Assembly: GCA_035041965.1 (NCBI GenBank)
Contig: JAPYMA010000865.1
Coordinates: forward strand, 1 to 64,000
DNA: 64,000 nucleotides
Direction: 5' to 3'
Source: Anisakis pegreffii
Lineage: Eukaryota; Nematoda; Chromadorea; Rhabditida; Anisakidae
A program made the position numbers and the translations under genes. Shown one piece after another: positions 2,101-55,683 of this stretch; position 1 is the first letter of the stretch, and each line of letters starts with the position of its first letter. The notes below the pieces were generated by a model. It made no database searches. It saw nothing but the letters and a program-made list of their open reading frames with translations, and was not told where the DNA came from.

Positions 2101-2848
2101 CCTCTCTATTTGTCCGGGCTGGGGACCGGCGCTAAGCTGGTTTGACTAGCTGTTTTGCCAGTCAAGCCAACTCAGTGGCTAGATTAAAAATGTTTTTTTG
2201 CTGCTGAGGCAGGAACCTGTAGAAGAGGAAAGAAGGTTCCAAACCTCAAAAGGCCAACCGTGGCCACAGCGGAAAAGACGGGGCATAAGCTTACCGAACT
2301 CAAGACAGACAACTAAAAGACAGTCATGCTCAGTCAAGCTCACTCAGCTCAAAGCTCAAGACAGACAAGAAGACGCTCATGTCAAACTCACTCATGCTCA
2401 AGACGGAGAAGAAGACGCTCGAAGACAAGGCTTACCTCAAAACGACCCCCAAAAAATTCTATCTCATGGCTCACGTTAAAGTCCCGATGAGCCCTACCTC
2501 ACGCCTCTCCGACTGGTCGCCGGCGATACCCCCTCTCCTTATCCCTCGCCCTTCCCTCACCCTCCTCCCCTCCTTCCCGCCTCCCTCTCTGCCCAGAGGG
2601 CAGAGAGTTCAGCGGGAAGGGGAGAAAGAAAGGGGAGGAGGGGTGAGGGTCGGGAGAGGGACAGGAAAGGGGGTGGTGCCGGCGAACCAGCCGGAGAGGC
2701 GTGCTGTAGGACTCCTAACCCCCCTCTCCCCGCTCAAAGACCTTAAGGGAAAGGAAACAAAGAGGAAGAGAGAGAGATCCGGCTGCACCATCGTCCGTCC
2801 GTCCGTCGTCCGTCGTCCGTCCAGTCGTCCATCCAGCGAACAAAAGAA

Positions 2849-2882
<34 letters not shown>

Positions 2883-3240
2883 CGGCTTCGCACCATCGTC
2901 CGTCCTCGTCGCACGTCCAGTCGTCCATCCGGCGAACAAAGGAATGGAGGAGAACAAAGAGAGAGAGAAGAAAAGAGAGAGAGGGAGAGGGAGAAAAGAG
3001 AGAGAGATCCGGCTGCGCCATCGTCCGTCCGTCCAGTCGTCCATCCAGCGAACAAAAGAACAAGAGAGAGAGAGAGGGAGAGAGAGAGAACCGGCTTCGC
3101 ACCATCGTCCGTCCTCGTCGCACGTCCAGTCGTCCATCCGGCGAACAAAGGAGAAAGAGAATGGAGGAGAAGAAAGAGAGAGAGAGAAAAAGAGAGAGAG
3201 AGAGAGAGAGAGAGGAAGAGAGAGAGAGAACCGGCGAAAG
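2100..3240. repeat. GC-rich block with GA-tract / CGTCC higher-order repeat
   Basis: This island is much richer in G+C than its surroundings and strongly strand-asymmetric. From about 2,776 two copies of a roughly 220-bp compound unit follow each other (about 2,776-3,007 and 3,008-3,225). Each has GATCCGGCTG then a CATCGTCCGTCC run, CCATCCAGCGAACAAAAG, a (GA)n tract, ACCGGCTTCGCACC, another CGTCC run, CCATCCGGCGAACAAAGG and a second (GA)n tract. Upstream, 2,290-2,440 holds shorter repeats of CTCAAGACAGACA and CTCACTCATGCTC. Long open frames on both strands are low-complexity translations of the repeat (Arg-Glu on +, Ser-Leu on -) and are not genes. Confidence 0.85.
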
Positions 3241-8100: not shown

Positions 8101-11100
8101 ATTGTTATTTGTTTTTCGCATCATATTCCATTCAGTTTAGCCAGTGAATTTATCAATTTGAAGAAGTATCAGTCTCGTTGAATGATCACCGCGACAGTAA
8201 ATGGATGTTCGGTGTTGTCGATAATAAATGAACATTTTAAGGTTCGTTGTCGGATGATCGAATGCAACAGCTATCGCGATTACCAGCTCCCCCACCGCCC
8301 CCTAACCTATCCTCTTTACCGCCTCCCCCACCACCACCACCCGCACTCCCTCCGAGCCGTTTACCCCCTCCACCTCCGCCACCCAAGCCAACATACGCTA
8401 ATGTAACGCCGATAGAAGATGCACTGTTGTCACCGTTATCGCGTCCACCCTCAGTACCACCGTATTCGTCGCCAACACCCGCCTCGGCATCAATCAAGCA
8501 CTATCCCGATGTGCCGTCAACGTCGGCGATCGCCTCACAACTCTCCTCTTCCGACCTATCACCAGACCGTATCAAAGAAATGGCATCTGCGCTACAAGCG
8601 GTTTTTGCACGGATTGGTGATGCCAATTCGATGAAACTCCCAATCAGTAACGACGACGACGCAGCCGTAAATGATTATTCATTTGATAGCTTGCAGTTGT
8701 CATCATCCTCGTTCCTTCAACAACATGCTGATAGGAGACTTGATGAACTTCGTACGTCGTCAGATTTAGCGGAGACTGAAGCTGAAACTCCGAACTCAGA
8801 TAGCATTGTTGATGATGCAAAAGTGGAACCGTCTTCATCTAATGTATTCATTCCTCCTCCTGCAGCCACTCACCTCATACCACTTCCTCAAACTGAACCA
8901 ACAGCGAATTTACTGACTTCGAACATTTTGGAAGTAATACCACTTCCCGATGATGTTGATCGGCAACGATCACCACCAAATGAGTTGATAAGCATGCCTG
9001 TTGTAAGTGCTCCTATAACAACCCCAATTGATACGTCTCTTTCAAATTATCAATCAGATGAGTCAAAACCGATGTCAACTGCGAATGTCACCAAACAACA
9101 AACAGTCCAGTCGACAGCAGTCATCGATCACAACATAAGCGTTGATTCGGATGAGTGTGCTATCTCAAAACCAAACAGCGATGACGAAATAAGGCGAGAT
9201 GTCAGTACAACCTTAAATTCAGTGCTTCAGATGGCTTCGGGTTCCGGTGAAACTAAACTGACGCCATTGGCCTTAAATGAAGACGTTAATATGACCGATG
9301 AAACAAGAGCGCAGTCCAGTGATGAGCTGCCAATACCTAGCTCGAGTTGTGAGATGAGTCAACTCGAAAAGGATGTGCGTAGCATCCTAATGGAGGTAGT
9401 GGCCACGGTGGTAGCATCCTATGAGTTGTTATCATTCAACGAAAATGTTTTGCATTTCTCATCGAGCAACTCAAGTGAAGAAGAACATCCCAAAGAGAAT
9501 ATTTCTGATGAAGCATCCATCTCACCAAATACCGTCTCCACTGATCAGGTATTTCATTTCATCATTTCTTTGAATATGCATACAGTTGATTCCGTCAATC
9601 CACTGATCATCACAAAATCAAATTCTGCATCCAAAGTTATGCAGTTGAAAGACTCAGTTGTTCATTTCTCTTCTCTTTCCTAATGTTTCAAATCTTTTCC
9701 GGCATATTCCCTTCCAAAATGCACGTGAAATCCATTTGAATGATGCGTTATGCTGTAAATGAATGAATGTATAAGTTTCTTTTGTTTTGTTCATGGACAA
9801 TTCCATTTGTATTTCAGGATAAAGAATCAACAAACGATTCAACCGCCAACTCCACTTCAAAGGAACCGGGGACTGAAAGGTTCATTCATTTATCGCTTTT
9901 TCTCTGATGCAATATGGATTGCAGTTCTTTTCTCGTCTGTCATTAATCCAAAACTAGAGCACAGATCAGAATGGCGGTGATGGCTCCAATAACGACATAA
10001 TGAACCTAGAGAACTTCAGCTTGTTCCACAATACAGATTTTATGGCTAGGCACTTTTGTACCTAGTGTGCGTTAAGATGAACATTTTCAAAATCAGTGTT
10101 ATGAAATGACAAAGAATATACACCGAATCAAATTCAACCGGTATTATGCATGCATTCTGGATGCCCCGCAACCGCATGCGTCTCATACAACATGCAGTAT
10201 ATGGCCACCACAATGTCCGCGTCCCCATCGTCGTTGTCATGTTCTCGCTAGCCAATTGCATTCTTTCATAATATCCAAAGGGTGTGGGATTTCTGCATTC
10301 ACTCCTCAAGAGTGCTCACTATTTTGCGAGTAAAATCGAGTGCGTACGTAGTATTATCATTTTTTTTGTAGTGGCCTTGCAGTTATCAGCATTCCTACTT
10401 CACTGAAACAGCTAGCTAAAATTGCGCAAAACTAGAAACAGAATAATTTGAAGGGTTTAAAGATTGCATACGCACGTTCTCTTATTGGTTAGAAAACGCA
10501 CTTGGGGAGCACGTTACCCAGTCGATTCAAACCACAATAGCAATGCTGGAATAAAAAATAAAAGAAATGGGAAAGAAATTGACCGAAAAAGCAAAATTTC
10601 GGAAACTGTAGAGCACATTCTTTATAGATTTAATAAAAATTCAAGGAAAATATAAACTGTCATCAGAATGAATGTCATTGTTAGGCTGACACAATTTTGT
10701 TGCATCAATTGCCTGTGAGCATTTTTGGTCCCGCCTTAGAATTATGTTATCATATATCGGAGAACGTGTGTTCTTTTGCACTAGTAACTTCAATATAATA
10801 GGGATGATTAGATTCGCAAATTCGTTCTCCTGTCAGCTCAGACAAATAGTTACGTGCTTGCTGTTTTCACGGTGTAACGTTTCAATGAAATTTACCTAAA
10901 GTCTACTTGTTTGGATTCCTCATCAATTCGAAATTGAATACAATCAGTGTTTGTTCAACTAGTGAACGTTTATCGCGTGTATTTGTAACTATTCGATATC
11001 AAGTCATCATTAAACAAGTGTTAGCACGCAAAGAGATCATTTTAAAGTTCGGACCAAGGTCATTCAGTTGACACGTATAGATTGATCTGAACTCGTCATA

Positions 11101-19589: not shown

Positions 19590-22500
19590 ATGGCATCGTT
19601 ACTATTCAAGGTTGTTCGCCGAGTCGAATCGACCCACATCGTTCAACCGAAAACCATTCGATACGGTATTCGATAGACTCTCTTTACTTCTTATTCGTAA
19701 AATCGTTAATGACACCACCTTGAGAAGATCATCTAAGAGATTATCTTCTCAAAGTGGTATCTTTTACAAGCGAACGCTTATAACATAGCTTGAAAACGGT
19801 AGTAATTTGCAAAACGTCGAAAATGCTACTTATTTTATTCGCTTAGTCAATTTGTTATTTTCAACACTCATTGTTTTATGCAGCGATGAGTTATTTTTCA
19901 AACTGTACTATAATATTAGTCTCAGCGTGCGTTTCCCACTTTTGCAAGAAAGGAATATTCGAATTTGGTGGATATTCTCAGAAGTGTCGGTGTTTCGGAA
20001 CTGTCCTTTTATGCTTTGATCAACTTTCAATTACCAATTCAAAGAAAACATCCAACCTTATAATTTGCATTTTTTGAAATTTTCAGTGGCTGAAACACTT
20101 CAGAAGCATGTATCTGCAATTAAATATGCCCAACAGCGGAGGTGTATTTTGTCTCATTGATTATTCACTAACAATAACAATAAGGACATTTCGTTATCAT
20201 ATTCGCCCCAATGATCAGTCATTATGTTTTGTTATTTTGAGTTTTACTGAATCGAGTATAAATTATCTCGCATTTCTTGCCTTCAACGTACAAAAAATCT
20301 CTCTTTTGAATTCATTCCTAAATTCTCGAATTTCTCCTACGGGCAACAAGCATTCTTTTAATTGAAGTGAGATACAATCATGAATTAAATCAAGTATTTT
20401 GGCCAGCACTACTCTCCTTTCAAGACATCCAATACAATTTTGTGAATGACACAACGAAATAAGTGCCTAAAAATGTGTTACTCAGTGGTGATATCGCATG
20501 TCTGGAAGGTCGCACGATGAATGAGAGCCGCGATAGTATTGCCATACCGCTGGGCAGTGAACCATCATTGCGACTGCAATATATGAACTATAAGAATTTT
20601 GTTCGTTTCGGAAAGTTACTTGAAGATTTGGACACATTTGCGGGTACCTTTCGTTATTGGCTGTTTGTTTATATGCTCGTCGTTTCTCGTGAAATGCACA
20701 CGATCAGTCGAGTGGAAAAAATGACTGCTTATTTCACGTTTATTTCGTCGGATTTATTAAAAAACTATTCAGTGGATAATTAATTGTAAACATACCATTA
20801 GTGAGAAAGAAAAAGTTTATTCTTTTTAAACTTGTTCGTTCGGAGTGTGCAATTTTTCTTAATTAACTCATAATTGAAATGATCATTCATAGTTTTAGTA
20901 TGGATCTCTTATAAGCACAATCAAAGAAGTGGACCAATGGGTATACCAAGCCATCATCCCATGGTAATCGTTACGGCAGCAGTGGATGAGATACGTGAGT
21001 GTTTTTGATCTAACAATTGCAAACCCTGAAGTTTGACATTTCGAGTTGTGGAAGAGTGGTGAAGGCAAGTAAAAATGACTTTGACACGCAAATGTTACAG
21101 ATATAATGGCTGATTACAACATATTACCAACCTCGGATATTTCAATGGAGGGTTTCGTTAGTTGGGTAGGAAGATCGAGTCAACACATATCAATGGATCT
21201 CTATCAGGAAGTTGAAGTCAGTGATCCAGATATTTTTTCTTAGGTTTAACATCACCATCGCATTTGTGAACTGAAAAGGTAAGAATTGATGTGATGAGAA
21301 ATGATAGAGGAATAGAACTATCTATACTTGGTGGTATCGACTAGATCAATTCAAAAAGCAAATCGCTTGATCGTCGCACGAATGAGCGTGTTCCTTAAGC
21401 AGCATTGCATTTAAAGCACATTTCCATTGTTGTTGACCATTCATCAGGGACGTCGTGTTAACTTCTTATCTGCGAGATTTGTCACCGTATCTCAAGACCC
21501 GATCACTGGACGAGCAACACCGAATATGCCTTTAATAACGACTGATCCTGAGCAAGAAGAAATTGTTCGAAGGGGACGTGGTATCTCACTGCTGCATTTT
21601 GTTTAATTTTCTAACTTATTGTCTGAACTTTTCAAAAGTTGTATTGTTTCTGCTCGGAAAATCGTACCTACTTCACGCACACATTATTGACTGTGCACAG
21701 TAAATTGCTCATCTATAGAACTGAAATCGAGATGAACACATCAAATCATTCATCGGCATTGGTTAAATTCTTTTCAGCTGCTCGCGAAATTCATAAGCTC
21801 GACGAAGAACATTCACTACTCCGAGAGCCACCTAATGAAAGTGAACGGAAACTATTGCACGACATTTTCCTGAAAACCGTCGACCACAAGTAGGTTACAT
21901 ATCCATCGGAAATTTAGTTCGAGCCTTGTGAGTGCCTGCCAACATTAAAATCAGACCAGTCTCTTTAGTGTGATTGTGTTACGTGCATTTCCTAACAAAT
22001 ATACAGAAATTCTCCATGAGCATTTCATTAGACATTGTTGAAAGCGACCCGACCGAGTGAGGTTCCGCTTTCAATAAACATTACCGAATTCGATTTGGAT
22101 CAGGTGATGGTTTCGAAATAAACATTCGGCACTATTATCTTAAACAAAAACTTATTGTTCGGCGACGTGATTGAGCGGGAATGACTGATTTGCAGTAGTC
22201 ATTCGTTCGAGCACCGTCGACTGCCAGAGAATCACGTTTGGCTCGAAGATGCGAAACTGAAAAATGCGATTATATGTTTTCCGATTGATCGAAATGTTCA
22301 CGGGAAAATTTTTGGTGGTTACATTATGCGACTTGCGTTCGAATTAGCCTGGTCAAATGCTGCTATATATGCGTACGTTTGTTTCATTTGCAAACGCACA
22401 TCTCATTCGAGTTGTAGTCAGGGCATGCGTAATTTCATTCAAATTTTCTTTCCCAATTTTTGTTTCTAAAATTTATCTTACATTTAGACAAGGTCATGTA

Positions 22501-24466
22501 GAGAAGTCATTTTTGAATGTTGAATGTTAGCATTAGGAGATGATGAAGAGTTTTGGCCGTTGCGGGAGCTTTTTGCATAAAACCGATGGGAGAAATGCAG
22601 AGATTGAATAATAGGACTGGTTCTAGGAGTGGACGTTGCGAAGTAATGTCAGTGTGCGAGATTATCTTCCGCAGGCCAGTTGAAGTTGGTTCACTGCTTC
22701 TACTCTCCAGTCAGGTGCTGTGTTTTCGTTCAGATCGTACCCACACTAGTAGCATTCAACATTTAAAGTAGTAATTAACTCTGAATGCAACATGAACGCC
22801 TCGTATGCGTACGGTGCAGAAAAGTCGGCCGAATGGATGCGATCGGGACGGGTCTGTTTTGTGATTCTCGATGTACTCTACCTGACATTCGTCTACTACG
22901 CACCACAAATACTACGACACAGACGAAAACCCGAACTTCGAGAAGTGATGTTTGTATGGAATTGGTTCAATTTGTTCAGCGATCTCCTAATGCTACTCTC
23001 AATTCTGCCCAATTTTATTCGGTCGCTCCGTCACGGACTTTACGGCAGCGTGTGCCTCTGCGAAGGACTGTACACATCAAGGCTGAGCGGGTATGCGATG
23101 TTCATGTTTCATTTGAGCAAAGCATGGGAACTATTCGATACGGTGTTGCTGATTCTACGTGGACGACCTTTGCTCGTTGTGCATGTCTACCATCATGCAA
23201 TCACTCTGCTGCTAGCCACGTTCACGTACTATCGTATTGGAGCGATTGCTCGATGGGGTGTGTTCATGAATTTAAGCACGCATATTCTCATGTACGGCTA
23301 TTTCTGCGCACAAACACTCACCAAACAAATACCGAGGCGTTTTGCTGTGATCATAACGTTCCTGCAAACAGCACAATTCGCTGCTGGATTCTTGATTGTT
23401 CTTCTTGCAAAACGATACTTAAAACTCGGCATGAAGTGCGAAGTGAACACAGCTCTGTTGAATTTCAATTTACTTGCATTGACTGCTTTCTTCGTTCTTT
23501 TCTCACATCACTACGCCACAAAATTCTGCAACTTGGATGCACAAAGGCAATATCACCGACAAGAACGACTGAAACGTTTTTGAAATTTTTGGTAAGGGTT
23601 CAGTTGAATTTCAAAAATTGTAAATTCATAGAATTATCAACATTTTATTAATCGCCATTCTTAACACTGTTCTTACTGTATTCTGTGTTCTTACTTGAAT
23701 CACTGGCAGCAATTTTTAAATTCGTCAACTATTCGTTAACAAAAATGAATTTTCATGGTTGTGTTCCAAATATATTATTCTCAGTTTGCTGAACACCACT
23801 GATCATAACCGTGCAAATTCCCATCAAAGATAGTATCTATAAATCAGTCAAAAATCCATATGTGCATAAATTACCGCTTGAAAACCACCATCGACGTCCA
23901 CTCGTAATTTGAATTTAATCGATCAATGATCAAGTGTCCGTCATTTTGGAGTATCTGCGAAAACGAGATGCGTATTTTCAGATATGCTATACGGTAGGTG
24001 ATCGAATGGAAGTTAGTGTGCACGCCGAAATCGCTGATCTTAGAGGCTGTAGCACACAAGAAATTCTGGTAATTTTTCGGTTCTTTGTCGTTTTCCAAAG
24101 AATTTTTCGAGTTCCTCGAAATGTCGGATTCAGTGATTTTGAATACTGCTAAAATCTTGATCACTTTAGACGTCGAATACGTTCTATTTTATGCTCAAAG
24201 CCAATCAGGATGTTCCTTGTGTTATTCCAAAATCATATGCAGGTAAGGCTCTTTTTTACAATCAGTCGTTAACGGTTCGAGGAGAAAGGAAAGTTTCTCT
24301 TATGGAGAAGCTTGAGTGCTCGTTGAGAAAGCTTAAAGCTAGTTTTGATACTCTCGAGCGCATTCAAGATCCAGCAGTTGGAATTGATAAAAGCAGATTA
24401 ATAAGTGTAATAATTTGCCTTTCGCACCAGTTCGAGTATTTAAATGAAGCAAGGCTTTCTCATTAA
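19590..24466 (+). CDS. ACOT9: ACOT9-type mitochondrial acyl-CoA thioesterase, 11 exons
   Basis: Exons: 19590-19665, 20087-20141, 20486-20643, 20899-20994, 21101-21216, 21448-21580, 21778-21889, 22196-22372, 22627-22714, 23982-24068, 24170-24466. All phases agree, giving 464 aa (human ACOT9 about 440). The first exon encodes an Arg-containing, acid-free start (MASLLFKVVRRVE) typical of a mitochondrial targeting peptide. Family matches run in order: IPLGSEPSLRLQY, VRFGKLLEDLD, GFVSWVGRSSQ, FGGYIMRLAFELAW, RPVEVGSLLLLSSQ, VSVHAEIADL, TNTFYFMLKA. These belong to the double hot-dog fold that hydrolyses acyl-CoA to free fatty acid and CoA. Start: the ATG lies 38 nt after an acceptor (AATTTTCAG). 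The ninth intron (22715-23981) contains the complete elongase gene described separately, and the thioesterase exons must be joined across it. Confidence 0.93.
22792..23583 (+). CDS. ELO-family very-long-chain fatty-acid elongase, single exon, nested in an intron
   Basis: An uninterrupted 263-aa frame carries every hallmark of the ELO condensing enzymes: K110-x2-E113-x2-D116-T117, the catalytic histidine box HVYHH (131-135), N160-x3-H164-x2-M167-Y168-x-Y170-F171, and T189-x2-Q192-x2-Q195. About seven hydrophobic membrane spans and the basic C-terminus (RQERLKRF) fit an ER protein. It would join malonyl-CoA to an acyl-CoA in the first step of chain elongation. His, not Gln, at the first box position is the form usual in enzymes acting on saturated or monounsaturated chains. 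It lies wholly in the 1,267-bp ninth intron of the ACOT9-type gene, same strand, 77 bp after the host donor. It has no intron although its neighbours have many. No separate promoter is evident. Confidence 0.95.
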   Translation: MNASYAYGAEKSAEWMRSGRVCFVILDVLYLTFVYYAPQILRHRRKPELREVMFVWNWFNLFSDLLMLLSILPNFIRSLRHGLYGSVCLCEGLYTSRLSGYAMFMFHLSKAWELFDTVLLILRGRPLLVVHVYHHAITLLLATFTYYRIGAIARWGVFMNLSTHILMYGYFCAQTLTKQIPRRFAVIITFLQTAQFAAGFLIVLLAKRYLKLGMKCEVNTALLNFNLLALTAFFVLFSHHYATKFCNLDAQRQYHRQERLKRF

Positions 24467-26609
24467 GTTTGATGACAGTTCAAATTGTCAAACTCAATAC
24501 GAACTCATCCTACACCAGCCACATCGATTTTCGCGGAAATCGCCATCTAATGCCGTTGAAAAGTAGTCACATTCGATCATTTCAGACAGTATGTTGTATA
24601 TAAAAGCGAAACGGCGATACGATCGATCGGAGAATCGACTTTGAAATGAAAACATAAATTGCTATCATCTGCTGGCTTCGATGCTTTCTGCGACCTGGAA
24701 CCATGATTTGTCGCTTCTTTGTTTTGTTAACAAAAAGTCGAAAATCGCTGACATGTTTTGATTGTGTGGTAGAATCCTTTAAGAGTGACATACGCACGCC
24801 ATCGACAGAAGTACACAATTAGAAGTTCAAAAATTTAATCATTTATTGGTTCATTCTGCGTTGCTTTAATAGGTTAAGCACAACCTATTTGCCATAAATA
24901 TCGTGAATATGCCACAATAATTTGATTAGCAAACCTAGTGCAACAGTTTACAGAGACAGTATATCATACGAATTGGTTCAGCAATACAGAAGTGTGCTGA
25001 ATCAACTCTTTCATTTTTTGGGTGTTTGTAACTTTACCGTCTTCTACCATACCCTATTCATTTCAAGTAATTTTGTTCGAGTCTCCTCCTAACGGTTTAA
25101 ACGTTATCATTTTGAGTTCATAACATGCATGCCATTGACAGAACGTCAAGCCATCTTGTAAGTACGCCTCGTATGTTCGAAAGGGTCATATTTGCTCTGG
25201 TCACGTATTATTCTTAGAGAGTGATTTACGGGCCATTTTATTTCGTTTTGAGTAGCACCACGGTGATCGGCAACAAAGCTTCTGCTCGAGAGATGACGAC
25301 GATGTTGACCGGTGAATTTTTTTGTTCACCGATTCACCGACCAATAAATTCACTGATTACTGATCGAATATTTTTTAAATGGTTGAGCGTTTTATGACTA
25401 TATGTATATGTTTCGTGAACATGTGCACTCGAGAGGTAAAGTGCCGTAAAACTGTCGAGGATGAAACCTAAATTTGTGAAACTTTTACATATTTTCACGC
25501 CTTCTCTCCCGTATTATGTGAGAGGCTTCGCTCAATTCTACGTCTCTGCAAAGTACGTGCTAATAATACTTGGGTTGTCTAGCTTCATTTGGAATATTTT
25601 TCAAGAATTCTTTGATCCGTTCGACATCAATTCGTTTTTCTTAGCTTTCAATAACACTTTGCTCGCTAATTTTACGGCAGCCGTAAATCATCCATGGAAC
25701 GTCACCAATTATTGCCATTAAACAAAGTTTTCATCTCATTGTTAGAAGGTTGCGAAAATCGTAAGCTCAACGGAAATCATGTTTTCCATTCATATGATTG
25801 CATATAACTCATTGCTTCCACCAAAATACCAGTTTCTTCGCCATTTATTAATTCAGTTTCGCTTGGTATTATATACTTCTAAAATCTCACGTTGCAACAA
25901 CTCTCGTGTATCAGAAGCTTACAGATCAAATTGCTATGTAAACAAGGAATCATATTTGTTGTATACGTAGTCCGTACTTAATTACATAAATTATGAGGAT
26001 GAACGAAATTAATAACGAAGCATTTAATGGCATATAACAAATTACAGCAGATCATAAAATAATGATGTTACTCTGAAACATTTTGCCCTAAAGTATGGTT
26101 TTGAATGTTTTTGTTACGGTGAATATCACAATAATTTGTTTAGTGGATAGGAAGAAATATAATAAAATTGATGTTTATTTCAAATCTATTGAACAATAAT
26201 AACCTAGAAACAGGCATTCACTGAAGCTTCAATCTACTGAACTTCAAAATATCGCACAAAAGCTTTGTTTTCGTGAAAATGCACATATATAAGCAAATAA
26301 ACAAAATTTACACCGGCGGAAATATTTCCTTAACTTAAAAATTTGATAATAAATTTACCGAATTCAAAAACCGGTTTCTATCCAAAAGTGTCCATCACAG
26401 ACAAAAACGAAAGACAGTTGTTCTAAGGAATCCATCTCATTCATCGTATGTGTAAGCAACCATGATCGAACTCCATTGGTCATTCAAACAAATTAGCCAT
26501 AACAACGGATGATTAAATTCAAAGGAGATGAAATCTTCACAACGATTGTGGTTAACACCCGAAAATACATTATCACATTCGATGCAAACAGATTAATGGT
26601 ACGAATAAA
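24467..26609. other. Intergenic stretch between convergent ACOT9-type and ARMH3 genes
   Basis: This lies tail-to-tail between the two genes and should hold both 3' ends. One 86-codon plus-strand frame (25,461-25,721) has a hydrophobic segment and two N-glycosylation-like sites near its end, but no splice context or family match; I do not call it a gene. Nothing else is supported. Confidence 0.5.
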
Positions 26610-52016: not shown

Positions 52017-55000
52017 ATGATCGTTAAGGTAGAGGAATTTCGAGAGTTACTTTAGTCGTGACCTGTTGAAGTTATTCAAAGAATTACGATGCTGGAGGAA
52101 TAGCGGATGGGAAGATGATCGCAATGTTGCTCTATTACTCTTTCTAGAACGAATGATTTGTTGCTTGTGAAAAAAGAGTCTTATTTTTTCAACTGCGTAA
52201 AAGGCTGGTGTGGAAGCTTGCAAATATTTTCATTGCAAAGAAATGGTTAGATGAGTGATTAGAAGCGATTGTTACTGCAACTTTCAGGAGTATCGCATTT
52301 TAATGCCCTTATCGACAGCTGAATATCGCAAGGGTCAACTATTTGCTGTGGCTGAAGCAAGCAAAAATGAAACGGGCGGAGGTGAAGGTGTTGAGGTAAT
52401 TTTCTCCGCATCTTAAACGAATATAGCCGGAATTTGAAAATGTTCGCTACGTTTCTTTTCGAAAGGATAGCCACGATACACTTGTCTTTTTCATTATGAC
52501 GCCCCTGAGCATCGATATTCTAAGGACGTTCACTCATAAAGTTATCGTTCAACCTTGCCATCGTCGCATGAAGTGGTTACTGTAAGATACGAGCGATTGA
52601 TGCGGCACCACTGTCGCATCCATCTACCATAAATCAATGTACCGTTGCATACAGCACATATCAGCTCACAAATAGATGATCGCAGCACGAAATTAATGGT
52701 GATTACAGGTTATAAAGCAAGAATATTTCGAAAGTGCAAAAGTGAAACCAGGTGAAACGATATCGGGTATTTACACGTTAAAGATTTATCGAATAAAGTC
52801 AAAAATACCATGGATGGCACGTAAAACGTTTCCGGATAGTGCATTCACTCTGCGTGAAGATTGTTGGAATGCTTATCCGTACTGTAAAACCATCCTCACG
52901 GTCGGTTTGAACTCAATTCGTATGTCGTGTTCGTCAAGAAGTCACGAGCTGTGAGCCATTTTGAAGAAAAAGAAAATTCTCGCTGAAATTTTTTGACTTC
53001 CTTGAAATGGGATAAATATTAGTACAACAGCAAAAAATGTTCTGGGAAGACGTATTGACTGATTATAATAAACTCATGAGAAGTACTAGATTAAACAAAA
53101 CGAGTCGATATGTTGAAGTTGCTTCTAAGGACTGAGTAATCCCTTCTGAGATCAGTCTATGAGGTAATCAGCATGAAATTTCGTTGCTGAATAATCGGAG
53201 AAACTTCGTCTTTAAGAATCCGGATTATATGGGTAAAAATTTCTACATAACTATTGAATCGATGCACATCGAAGACGACGGAACAACGGAAAACGTTCGT
53301 TTATTTTGTTGGTATTTACCTTGTTATGAGCAACTCTTTATTTATAATGTAAATTATATCTGATTTCTCAAGTGTGTTATTGGGGGTCGTTTGATTAAAA
53401 AATGGTCGAAGAAAAAACATTTTACGTGCTGACAAAAAAAAGAGGAGTTTAAAAAAATGACACCAAGCCTAAACCGCAACCCAAGCGTCCGCCCAAGCCT
53501 GATCTGGAACTAAGCCTAAGTCTTAAGGTACTCTTCGGTTTAAGCCTAAACCTTAGTCTCACTCTGAGTAGGTAGTCAATGTATAATCTTTGACTGTCTT
53601 TACTGTCTACTTTTAGATGTGTTCGATAGTCTTTTTCAATCGTCTGGTTGGGAATATTATATCCATTTCAAAAGGCACCTGTTGTCATGCATTTTTGATG
53701 AGATTCAGATGTTCGTTGGTGCAAATGATTATCCCAGGCTAACGAAGGTTTACTTCAGGCATTGAATTTAGACAAAAAATTGTTAAAACGCCGTCAGGTC
53801 GTAATGCTGGATATATACGACGAAAAATATCTCAAGACAACGGCAAGTGTTCAGTTGCATTCGAAATTGAATACTTACACTACAAACACAATATAATGGG
53901 CAGTAGACGATCAACGTAATCTTGAAACATGGTTCAAATGCAGAATTTGCAGGATATAACTGACGAAACGAATCCGCGAGTATTTCATTCCGAAGTAACC
54001 GGACGAGGTCCTCTTGAAGAAGACTGGGCTCAAACAACAGAACCTATAATGTGCTGTTATAAGGTGATGGAAGCATGACTGCAAATAACTGATGACACTT
54101 AATTTTAGCACAGTTTTGATTGTGGAATGAAAATTGATGTGAAATGAAGTCGTTTTCAGTGTTCTTCAGTATTCGTGTAGAAAGGCAGATGCTCTTTCGG
54201 AGCTCCACATTATTTCTTTTGAAACGACAAAGCAATGAGAAGCATGTGGGACAGTTTTTTAGAGAAAAACAAGACGAATGAAAAAAAACACTACCGAGGG
54301 TAAGGCCCACCCTAAGCTTAGGTGTAAACCTGAGCGTGAGTGAGTGGGCACTGTTTGCTCCTTCAGTTGTATGTTCCATGTGGTTCTAGATGGACTGGCA
54401 TTGTTTAGTTGTTAGACTGCAAATAGCAAACTGCTATGAAAAAAATATTTACGGTAGTGAACATTTACCTGGTTTTTCTTTGGTTTCCAAGCAGAGCAGT
54501 GACATCATACAATAGTTTTTGATGTAGTTATGGACACAACCAATATTATACTTTAAAAAATCATCAGTCATTGAATTTCAGGTCGTGCAAGTTTTGTTTA
54601 AATGGAGAGGTTTACAGGGAACAATAGAAAAAATGACTCACAAACAATATCGACGAATATTTGCAAAATTTCATAGGCATTGTTTCTTTTTTAATAACTC
54701 TCATTCGGTGATTTTTTTCACTGATTATCGCAAAAAACGGAATGGTGCAATACTCGGCGAAACCTTCATGGCAGTTCTTCGCCTTGTTTTCCAGTCGTCT
54801 TGGTGACTGTAGTAAAAGTACAATTGAGAGTGATAGGTAACAACTGCAGATAAAAAGAATTGTTCCATTTCAAAGCTGAAGGTAGGATTGCTGATATCTA
54901 TCTGAAAAGAATTATACGTTTTCTGGTTGTAAAAAACATGCACAGCCGTGTAATTGGGACGAAAAGACATCAGATGTGAATTTGAAATCTAACGAAGCTG

Positions 55001-55683
55001 GAAAATATTGCAGAGAAACATTCTGTTGGATAGATCGATGGTATAATTTGTCAGTGAAAGAAATTAATGAACTCGAAGAGAGCACTGCTGTACAACTGAA
55101 GAAACAATTGACTAATCCTCAGAAAAGAGGAATTTCTGCTGATGATGACGATGGCTGCAGTCGTGGACGGTCAATTCGAGAGTCTCTGAGAGAATGTTTC
55201 CGAAGAGGTAAGTCTCATATGTATAAGAGAGATGTGTTGCGACCGCAAGAGCTGAAATCAAGATCGAATTTACATTCAGACCATTAAGGCTTGCGCTTAG
55301 GCTTGTGATCAGGTTCACGCTGATATCTTAACTCTGAAGGAGTGAGTGGGTGGAGTGCACTGCTACAACTTACAAGTCGACTGCAGGATAACTGTTATCA
55401 GGTCGTATTGGCTGGATTCGTTCGAATAATCAGCGTTATTATCACTGTGAAAATCTCCGCTCCATCACCTTGCACGGCCTTCTGACCATCAACATTAGGA
55501 TCGATTGAATCAAACATGATCGGAGAAGTTTGGACCATGAGAAGAATAGACTGGTGTAAAAACACTGCAGAATGACATAGATTTGAAAACAGTAAAAGAT
55601 TCCTTTCAGCTGACCAAGATAGTGATAAAGATTGTGATAAGGACAGTGGTAAAGACAGTAATCCAGAGGAAACAAAAACCTAG
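52017..55683 (+). CDS. PITPNA: Class I phosphatidylinositol transfer protein (PITP alpha/beta type), 9 exons
   Basis: Exons: 52017-52028, 52288-52395, 52709-52900, 53217-53294, 53759-53848, 53944-54063, 54582-54676, 55014-55207, 55610-55683. The joined frame is 320 aa; vertebrate class I PITPs are about 270. The first exon encodes only MIVK. The second carries [16 protein letters not shown], practically the vertebrate sequence; further matches are [43 protein letters not shown] and [11 protein letters not shown]. The family carries phosphatidylinositol and phosphatidylcholine between membranes and feeds PI kinases. Beyond the domain is a Ser/Arg stretch and a final exon rich in Asp and Lys (about aa 297-320), giving a charged tail not found in vertebrate PITP alpha. 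The seventh intron appears to start with GC (AG|GCATTG), since the conserved join FHR-ETFCW requires it. The start of the 53944 exon could instead be 53953. Confidence 0.92.
53461..53560. repeat. Degenerate AAGCCTAA telomere-like repeat in a PITP intron
   Basis: CCAAGCCTAAACC, CCGCCCAAGCCTGA, AACTAAGCCTAAGTC and TTTAAGCCTAAACC follow each other in the fourth intron (53,295-53,758). It resembles the tracts near 45.8 and 51.55 kb and a shorter one near 54,300. Confidence 0.65.

Follow-up and report, generated by a model that had tools for sequence, protein, structure and literature searches.

The cholinergic locus of Caenorhabditis elegans, unc-17/cha-1, carries the VAChT and ChAT genes on the same strand. 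Nesting of one gene within another is expected to cause transcriptional interference. In the portion of PMC3053374 available to us, the VAChT frame is described as a single exon within the first ChAT intron, an arrangement conserved in nematode, Drosophila and mammals. Nested genes, short intronless inner ones included, are well known, and 76 of 296 human simple nested pairs have both members on the same strand, which is the rarer orientation (PMC8467205, in excerpt).

Here, a 64,000-nucleotide stretch of the Anisakis pegreffii genome (GenBank assembly GCA_035041965.1, contig JAPYMA010000865.1, positions 1 to 64,000 of the forward strand), called the window below, was analyzed. It contains an intronless fatty acid elongase (ELO) gene within an intron of an ACOT9-like acyl-CoA thioesterase gene. 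This pair is a new example of the same-strand intronless nesting known from the cholinergic type. As in the cholinergic locus (PMC3053374, in the part available), the single-exon frame of a functionally related gene sits in a host intron and is kept across deep lineages; there the inner gene is a transporter whose cargo the host enzyme makes, the closest parallel to the ELO/thioesterase pair. The two loci differ in that VAChT lies in a first intron, with multiple promoters, whereas the ELO gene lies in intron 9 of 11, inside a region coding for a folded domain. Moreover, the cholinergic arrangement is conserved to mammals, whereas ELO/thioesterase nesting was seen only within nematodes.

Other described systems share single aspects with this locus. 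The nesting of ceh-10 in polq-1 is likewise kept across nematodes but, unlike the ELO/thioesterase pair, involves opposite strands, according to the accessible text of PMC12274878. In C. elegans sma-9, a choice between cis and trans splicing is made on one pre-mRNA (PMC2904332, partial text), which resembles the route considered below. There the choice concerns parts of one protein and SL2, whereas here the inner product belongs to a different gene and it was SL1 genes that were searched. In the H13/Mcts2 pair, as excerpted from PMC13309782, the nested gene affects host transcript ends, a point of likeness; that pair differs in being mammalian and imprinted, and in having its own CpG-island promoter. 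Among the papers listed by a literature search on the pair or its parts, judged by titles and the starts of abstracts, none dealt with a thioesterase gene harboring an elongase, and a search on Steinernema annotation found no paper on that subject.

The host thioesterase gene

The host gene, modeled by hand-splicing and comparison, extends from 19590 to 24644 on the forward strand and has 12 exons encoding 409 amino acids (Table 1). In the spliced model, all 11 introns are GT-AG and their phases are consistent. Intron 9 measures 1267 bp, as against 101 to 421 bp for the remaining ten. The thioesterase P0007 of Parascaris univalens aligned with this model at 64% identity over 407 columns. An earlier note on this DNA had joined the host exons in phase at SSQ/ICYTV, and this was borne out: the intron is in phase 0, and P0007 reads SSQVCYTVG at the junction.

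Table 1. Positions of the two genes and of putative processing signals in the window.
Feature	Position	Strand	Basis or remark
Host exons 1-5	19590-19665, 20087-20141, 20486-20643, 20899-20994, 21101-21216	+	Spliced model
Host exons 6-9	21448-21580, 21778-21889, 22196-22372, 22627-22714	+	Spliced model
Host exons 10-12	23982-24068, 24170-24242, 24586-24644 (stop)	+	Spliced model
Host intron 9, phase 0, 1267 bp	22715-23981	+	CAG/GTGCTG...GTATTTTCAG/ATA; acceptor reads TTTTCAG/ATA
Nested intronless ELO (fatty acid elongase) CDS, 263 aa + TGA	22792-23583	+	Pfam, alignment, fold search
TTCAG, candidate trans-splice acceptor (cut after 22733)	22729-22733	+	Putative function
GTAAGG donor-like hexamer, possible splice from ELO exon to host exon 10	23592-23597	+	Putative function
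Variant poly(A)-like hexamers	AATGAA 23744, AATATA 23769, TATAAA 23838, CATAAA 23865	+	Within 23744-23870

The Pfam 4HBT domain was found at host residues 284-358 (31.8 bits, cut-off 20.6), and individual acyl-CoA hydrolase chains from PDB entries aligned with host residues 274-403 on chain residues 19-150. The intron 9 junction falls after residue 337, within one hot-dog domain. This domain and the full-length similarity to P0007 identify the host as a member of the ACOT9 type. Because the 4HBT and PDB hydrolase matches run across the junction, the exons before 22714 and after 23982 belong to one gene, as the earlier note had supposed. The possibility that two different host genes flank intron 9 was ruled out by the full-length alignment together with the single-domain match across the junction.

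A search of the genome (122.7 Mb in 1740 contigs, the window being contig C627) with a 464-aa host model gave 10 matches at E<=0.001, all 10 at the host locus; this query, also used for the protein search below, was partly wrong, having a read-through tail after KSYAG. The truncated Anisakis simplex thioesterase record P0010 was 86% identical to the host in a gapped alignment of 254 columns. Its tail corresponds, with one difference, to the letters of the window's host intron 8 read through.

The nested elongase and its paralogues

The ELO codons run from 22792 to 23580 and the stop codon ends at 23583, with no internal stop or break. The whole CDS lies within a single host intron and on the host strand, which is the structure of a nested gene. 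Pfam assigned the frame to the ELO family (PF01151) with an E of 3.3e-47 and 161.5 bits, against a cut-off of 27, over residues 22-247. In an alignment of nine ELO proteins, 16 columns were invariant, including K110, E113, D116, T117, H131, H134 and H135 as well as N160, H164, M167, Y168, T189, Q192 and Q195. All positions of KxxExxDT, HxxHH, NxxxHxxMY and TxxQxxQ, which we take to be the usual names of the ELO motifs, are thus among them.

The AlphaFold model of the nested ELO has a pLDDT of 77.1, which corresponds to moderate confidence. When it was used in a fold search, the sole PDB matches at E<=0.001 were two chains of 6y7f, human ELOVL7, the best with an E of 9.8e-7 and TM scores of 0.66/0.68. 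The protein is accordingly modeled with a helical membrane fold like that of ELOVL7. A sequence search of the PDB with the same protein returned nothing at E<=0.01.

An intact and intronless ELO gene on the same strand within a real thioesterase intron, as claimed in the earlier note, is therefore what this 263-codon frame with its Pfam match and invariant motifs represents. Two of the details given there need correction. The intron is not almost filled by the ELO frame, which occupies 792 of its 1267 bases, and 22715-23981, given as the coordinates of the gene, are those of the intron.

Searching the genome with the nested ELO gave 13 matches, namely the nested gene itself over all 263 residues and 12 others, none of which covers more than 104 of the 263. 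These 12 were read as 11 genes, two matches on contig C331 being one gene. ELO genes are clustered, with three matches each on contigs C642 and C318. Nine paralogues on eight stretches were inspected, the C318 matches at 330247 and 342948 lying outside this set. An unbroken ELO frame was found in none of the nine, the similarity being split into one to three partial pieces in each. In four of them (on C1697, C555, C39 and C513) a donor-like GT follows two bases after the HxxMY codons, at a point where the nested ELO reads through; on C39, similarity resumes some 550 bases past this GT. Three other paralogue frames read on through HxxMY, like the nested ELO. The intron-containing paralogues that the earlier note had suggested looking for thus seem to be present in the genome, and the nested ELO appears to be free of introns that its paralogues have. 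Since three paralogues read on where four have a donor-like site, intron content appears to vary within the family.

Conservation and age of the nested pair

In the host protein search, 7995 candidates were scored, 928 of which had E<=0.001, and the best 120 of these 928 were listed. Among the 120 matches listed, thioesterase and ELO domains occur together in one record, P0014 of Steinernema hermaphroditum (665 aa). Its letters run from the host, ending in VGRLLLLSSQ, through a complete ELO to VCYSIDRS and the rest of the host. In the alignment, host residues 9-337 fall on 10-340, ELO residues 7-237 on 345-579, and the host segment beyond the junction on 599-653. In Steinernema carpocapsae, L596_014413 (P0024) contains host sequence as far as LLLLSSK; L596_014412 (P0127) contains an ELO cut before its C-terminus, followed by VCYSVERS and host sequence. 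The two locus tags follow one another in number, and the contig given for each has 7,362,381 bases. The Steinernema evidence consists of annotated protein records, whose models fuse both genes, and their letter orders are what a same-strand ELO between those two host exons would give. As to the comparison with related species recommended in the earlier note, the protein records of two Steinernema species place the same ELO at the same SSQ junction.

By taxonomy, Anisakis is a member of the suborder Spirurina, and the two Steinernema species, both insect-killing, fall in Tylenchina. Because the ELO stands at the identical host junction in the records of both Steinernema species, the nesting appears to be ancient, and the simplest reading would be a single nesting event before the Spirurina-Tylenchina split. 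Before that split, an ELO gene would have arrived in an ACOT9-type intron at the SSQ/(V/I)CY junction, and it would then have been kept there as a working gene. Leaving aside how its message is made, we consider it highly probable that this is an old, conserved and functional same-strand nested pair. Since two acyl-CoA enzymes stay nested at one codon boundary across two suborders, the data suggest that nesting is of use here or, at any rate, does little harm.

With the Ascaris lumbricoides protein P0001, the nested ELO shares 66% identity. This value is close to the 64% between the host and its Parascaris counterpart, which fits similar constraint on both genes. In a 20-row ELO tree, five nested-type proteins (from the window, Ascaris P0001, the two Steinernema and Aphelenchoides P0128) were placed on one side of a branch with support 81/72, which is moderate and below the star threshold, and none of the nine paralogues was on that side. 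The term nested-type denotes this tree grouping, an ELO at the host junction having been seen only for the window and the two Steinernema.

Host records of Thelazia (P0048), Loa (P0119), Panagrellus (P0041) and Toxocara (P0033) also go astray at or just after the junction, the last with 13 extra residues at or just after SSQ. Such models would fit the presence of an intron there, its content being a separate matter. In many other host records, including those of Parascaris, Setaria, Dirofilaria and Onchocerca, the junction is read through normally, which is uninformative on intron content. As the public thioesterase models P0014, P0127, P0024, P0048, P0119, P0041 and P0033 are fused, cut or misread at or after SSQ, nematode gene sets need correction here. 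Two ELO protein searches, which need shared five-residue words and returned six and four proteins, gave no record named Caenorhabditis or filarial; as evidence of loss, this would be weak.

Origin of the nested elongase

A retrocopy that became functional had been put forward in the earlier note, with its age unstated. The retrocopy itself is favored by the absence of introns, set against nine paralogues of which none has an unbroken frame; the age is supplied by the Steinernema records, which make the event ancient. A functional retrocopy, but an old one, is on these comparisons a possible origin. Direct repeats of 10 nt or longer were not found on either side of the ELO frame, nor was a run of six A between the ELO stop and the host acceptor; at the age of the nesting, such traces of retroposition would be expected to have decayed. 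A recognizable parent was not found either, because the best paralogue in the same genome is only 46% identical over 85 residues.

The contrast between an intronless nested ELO and nine paralogues with broken frames would also be produced by a recent, lineage-specific functional retrocopy, but the identical insertion place in the records of two Steinernema species rules this out, and both the distance of the best paralogue and the lack of flanking direct repeats speak against it, so that we hold it to be very improbable. Alternatively, the ELO gene may have been duplicated at the DNA level into the host intron and have lost its introns piecemeal afterwards. No hallmarks of retrotransposition are left, and three paralogue frames are without the HxxMY intron seen in four others, so that family intron content varies, both of which favor such a history. 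The total absence of introns is nevertheless made more simply in one step of reverse transcription. Duplication at the DNA level is rather unlikely in our judgment, and it is compatible with our best explanation of the locus.

Messages of the two genes

The host donor and the ELO ATG are 77 nt apart. This leader has a single TTCAG, which ends 19 nt past the host donor with 58 nt left to the ATG; by chance, 0.08 would be expected in 73 nt on base composition and about 0.16 on the motif's observed frequency of 2.25 per kb. In a nine-site matrix the candidate acceptor ending at 22733 took rank 13 among 39 AG sites; the splice-site matrix gives this acceptor no preference, and it rests on 9-10 sites, too few to rank sites well. 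The host donor CAG/GTGCTG came 8th among the first 10 host donors in a small leave-one-out matrix. On the other side of the frame, the GTAAGG at 23592 begins at the 9th base after the ELO stop and matches the intron 11 donor (24243) in all six bases; it took rank 14 among 77 GT sites in the nine-site matrix. No AATAAA was found between the ELO stop and the host acceptor. In the annotated models of both Steinernema genomes, the ELO is spliced to the host exon that follows. SL1 genes (RF00198) gave at least 31 matches in the genome, at least 24 of them over the Rfam cut-off and most in tandem, these counts being lower bounds from 50 candidates scored.

Based on these features, cis-splicing of exon 9 to exon 10 would remove the elongase and yield the thioesterase message, while the 5' end of the elongase message would be formed at the acceptor ending at 22733, through trans-splicing of a spliced leader. 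Use of this acceptor in cis with the adjacent donor is unlikely because the two are 19 nt apart and the shortest host intron is 101 nt. Spliced-leader addition at 22734 is favored because the TTCAG is near the donor and such addition needs no donor in the transcript. The 3' end of the elongase message would be formed by polyadenylation in the intron, or by a splice from 23591 to host exon 10. A 3' end in the intron or via exons 10-12 is favored by the GTAAGG, by the Steinernema models and by the fact that the poly(A)-like hexamers are variants only. Trans-splicing as the main route to the elongase message is put forward tentatively, as a real possibility that falls somewhat short of an even chance.

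Instead, the elongase might have a promoter of its own within the host sequence upstream, together with a separate poly(A) site, its nesting being a mere matter of location and its processing independent of the host transcript. The variant hexamers at 23744-23870 are consistent with such a site, and VAChT promoters lie within the ChAT intron at the cholinergic locus, according to a title cited in PMC3053374. Because the gap between donor and ATG is only 77 nt, this promoter would need to overlap host exons or be placed in intron 8, and the intron after the ELO has no AATAAA; neither point is decisive, and we regard a separate promoter as a doubtful but serious candidate. That the elongase is an in-frame exon of one bifunctional thioesterase-elongase polypeptide could be read from the single 665-aa record P0014 with both domains. 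It was ruled out by the ELO's own TGA in the window and by the hot-dog domain, which a fusion would interrupt with a membrane protein. In addition, exon 9 joined to the 22733 acceptor runs into a stop before the ELO start, and S. carpocapsae is annotated with two models, cut differently, so that a bifunctional protein appears extremely unlikely.

Trans-splicing of the elongase message could also take the more specific form of a splice choice on one primary transcript, in which cis-splicing gives the thioesterase and SL1 trans-splicing 19 nt further on gives the elongase, as a message that either ends within the intron or takes over host exons 10-12. We judge this form unlikely. If it were true, thioesterase and elongase outputs would be mutually exclusive per transcript, and this would account for the persistence of the nesting at a single place from before the divergence of Spirurina and Tylenchina onward. 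The locus, accessible to experiment in Steinernema, could be used to test whether trans-splicing of a spliced leader lets nematodes sustain same-strand nesting by freeing the inner message.

An overlapping open frame and other features of the window

A second frame, offset by +2, is open over the whole ELO at 22785-23651 on the forward strand (288 aa), its ATG being 7 nt upstream. It has no stops, against about six expected under synonymous shuffling, and 2 of 5000 shuffles were as low; in further shuffles, none of 1500 was as low in each of two schemes. The hypergeometric P was 0.0005, or 0.0026 with the next base kept, and in both calculations changes at the first base of Leu, Arg and Ser codons were disregarded. 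The frame was chosen only once it had been noticed, and P is uncorrected for the five frames that were compared. None of the 39 ELO codons standing before AA, AG or GA ends in T, as against 61 of 263 overall. The frame of the same offset shows nothing like it in the host (P 0.18) or in six paralogue exons (lowest P 0.10). One antisense ELO frame (P 0.0016) and the +1 frame of the host (P 0.013) are also low in stops. A Pfam search with the product of the overlapping frame returned no match. Chance is the likelier explanation, and dual coding is possible.

Elsewhere, an imperfect tandem array, its units about 107-134 bp long, occupies positions 83-857 of the window. At 2814-3227, a 209-bp unit containing AG runs and CGTCC motifs occurs in about two copies; it is probably this repeat that gives rise to the several long, overlapping open frames seen there on the two strands. 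The longest open frame of the window, 480 codons at 8241-9680 on the forward strand, had no Pfam match at E<=0.01. Finally, 54895-55284 on the forward strand matched weakly the C-terminal end of phosphatidylinositol transfer protein (PF02121, E 1.8e-5) and is probably one exon of such a gene.
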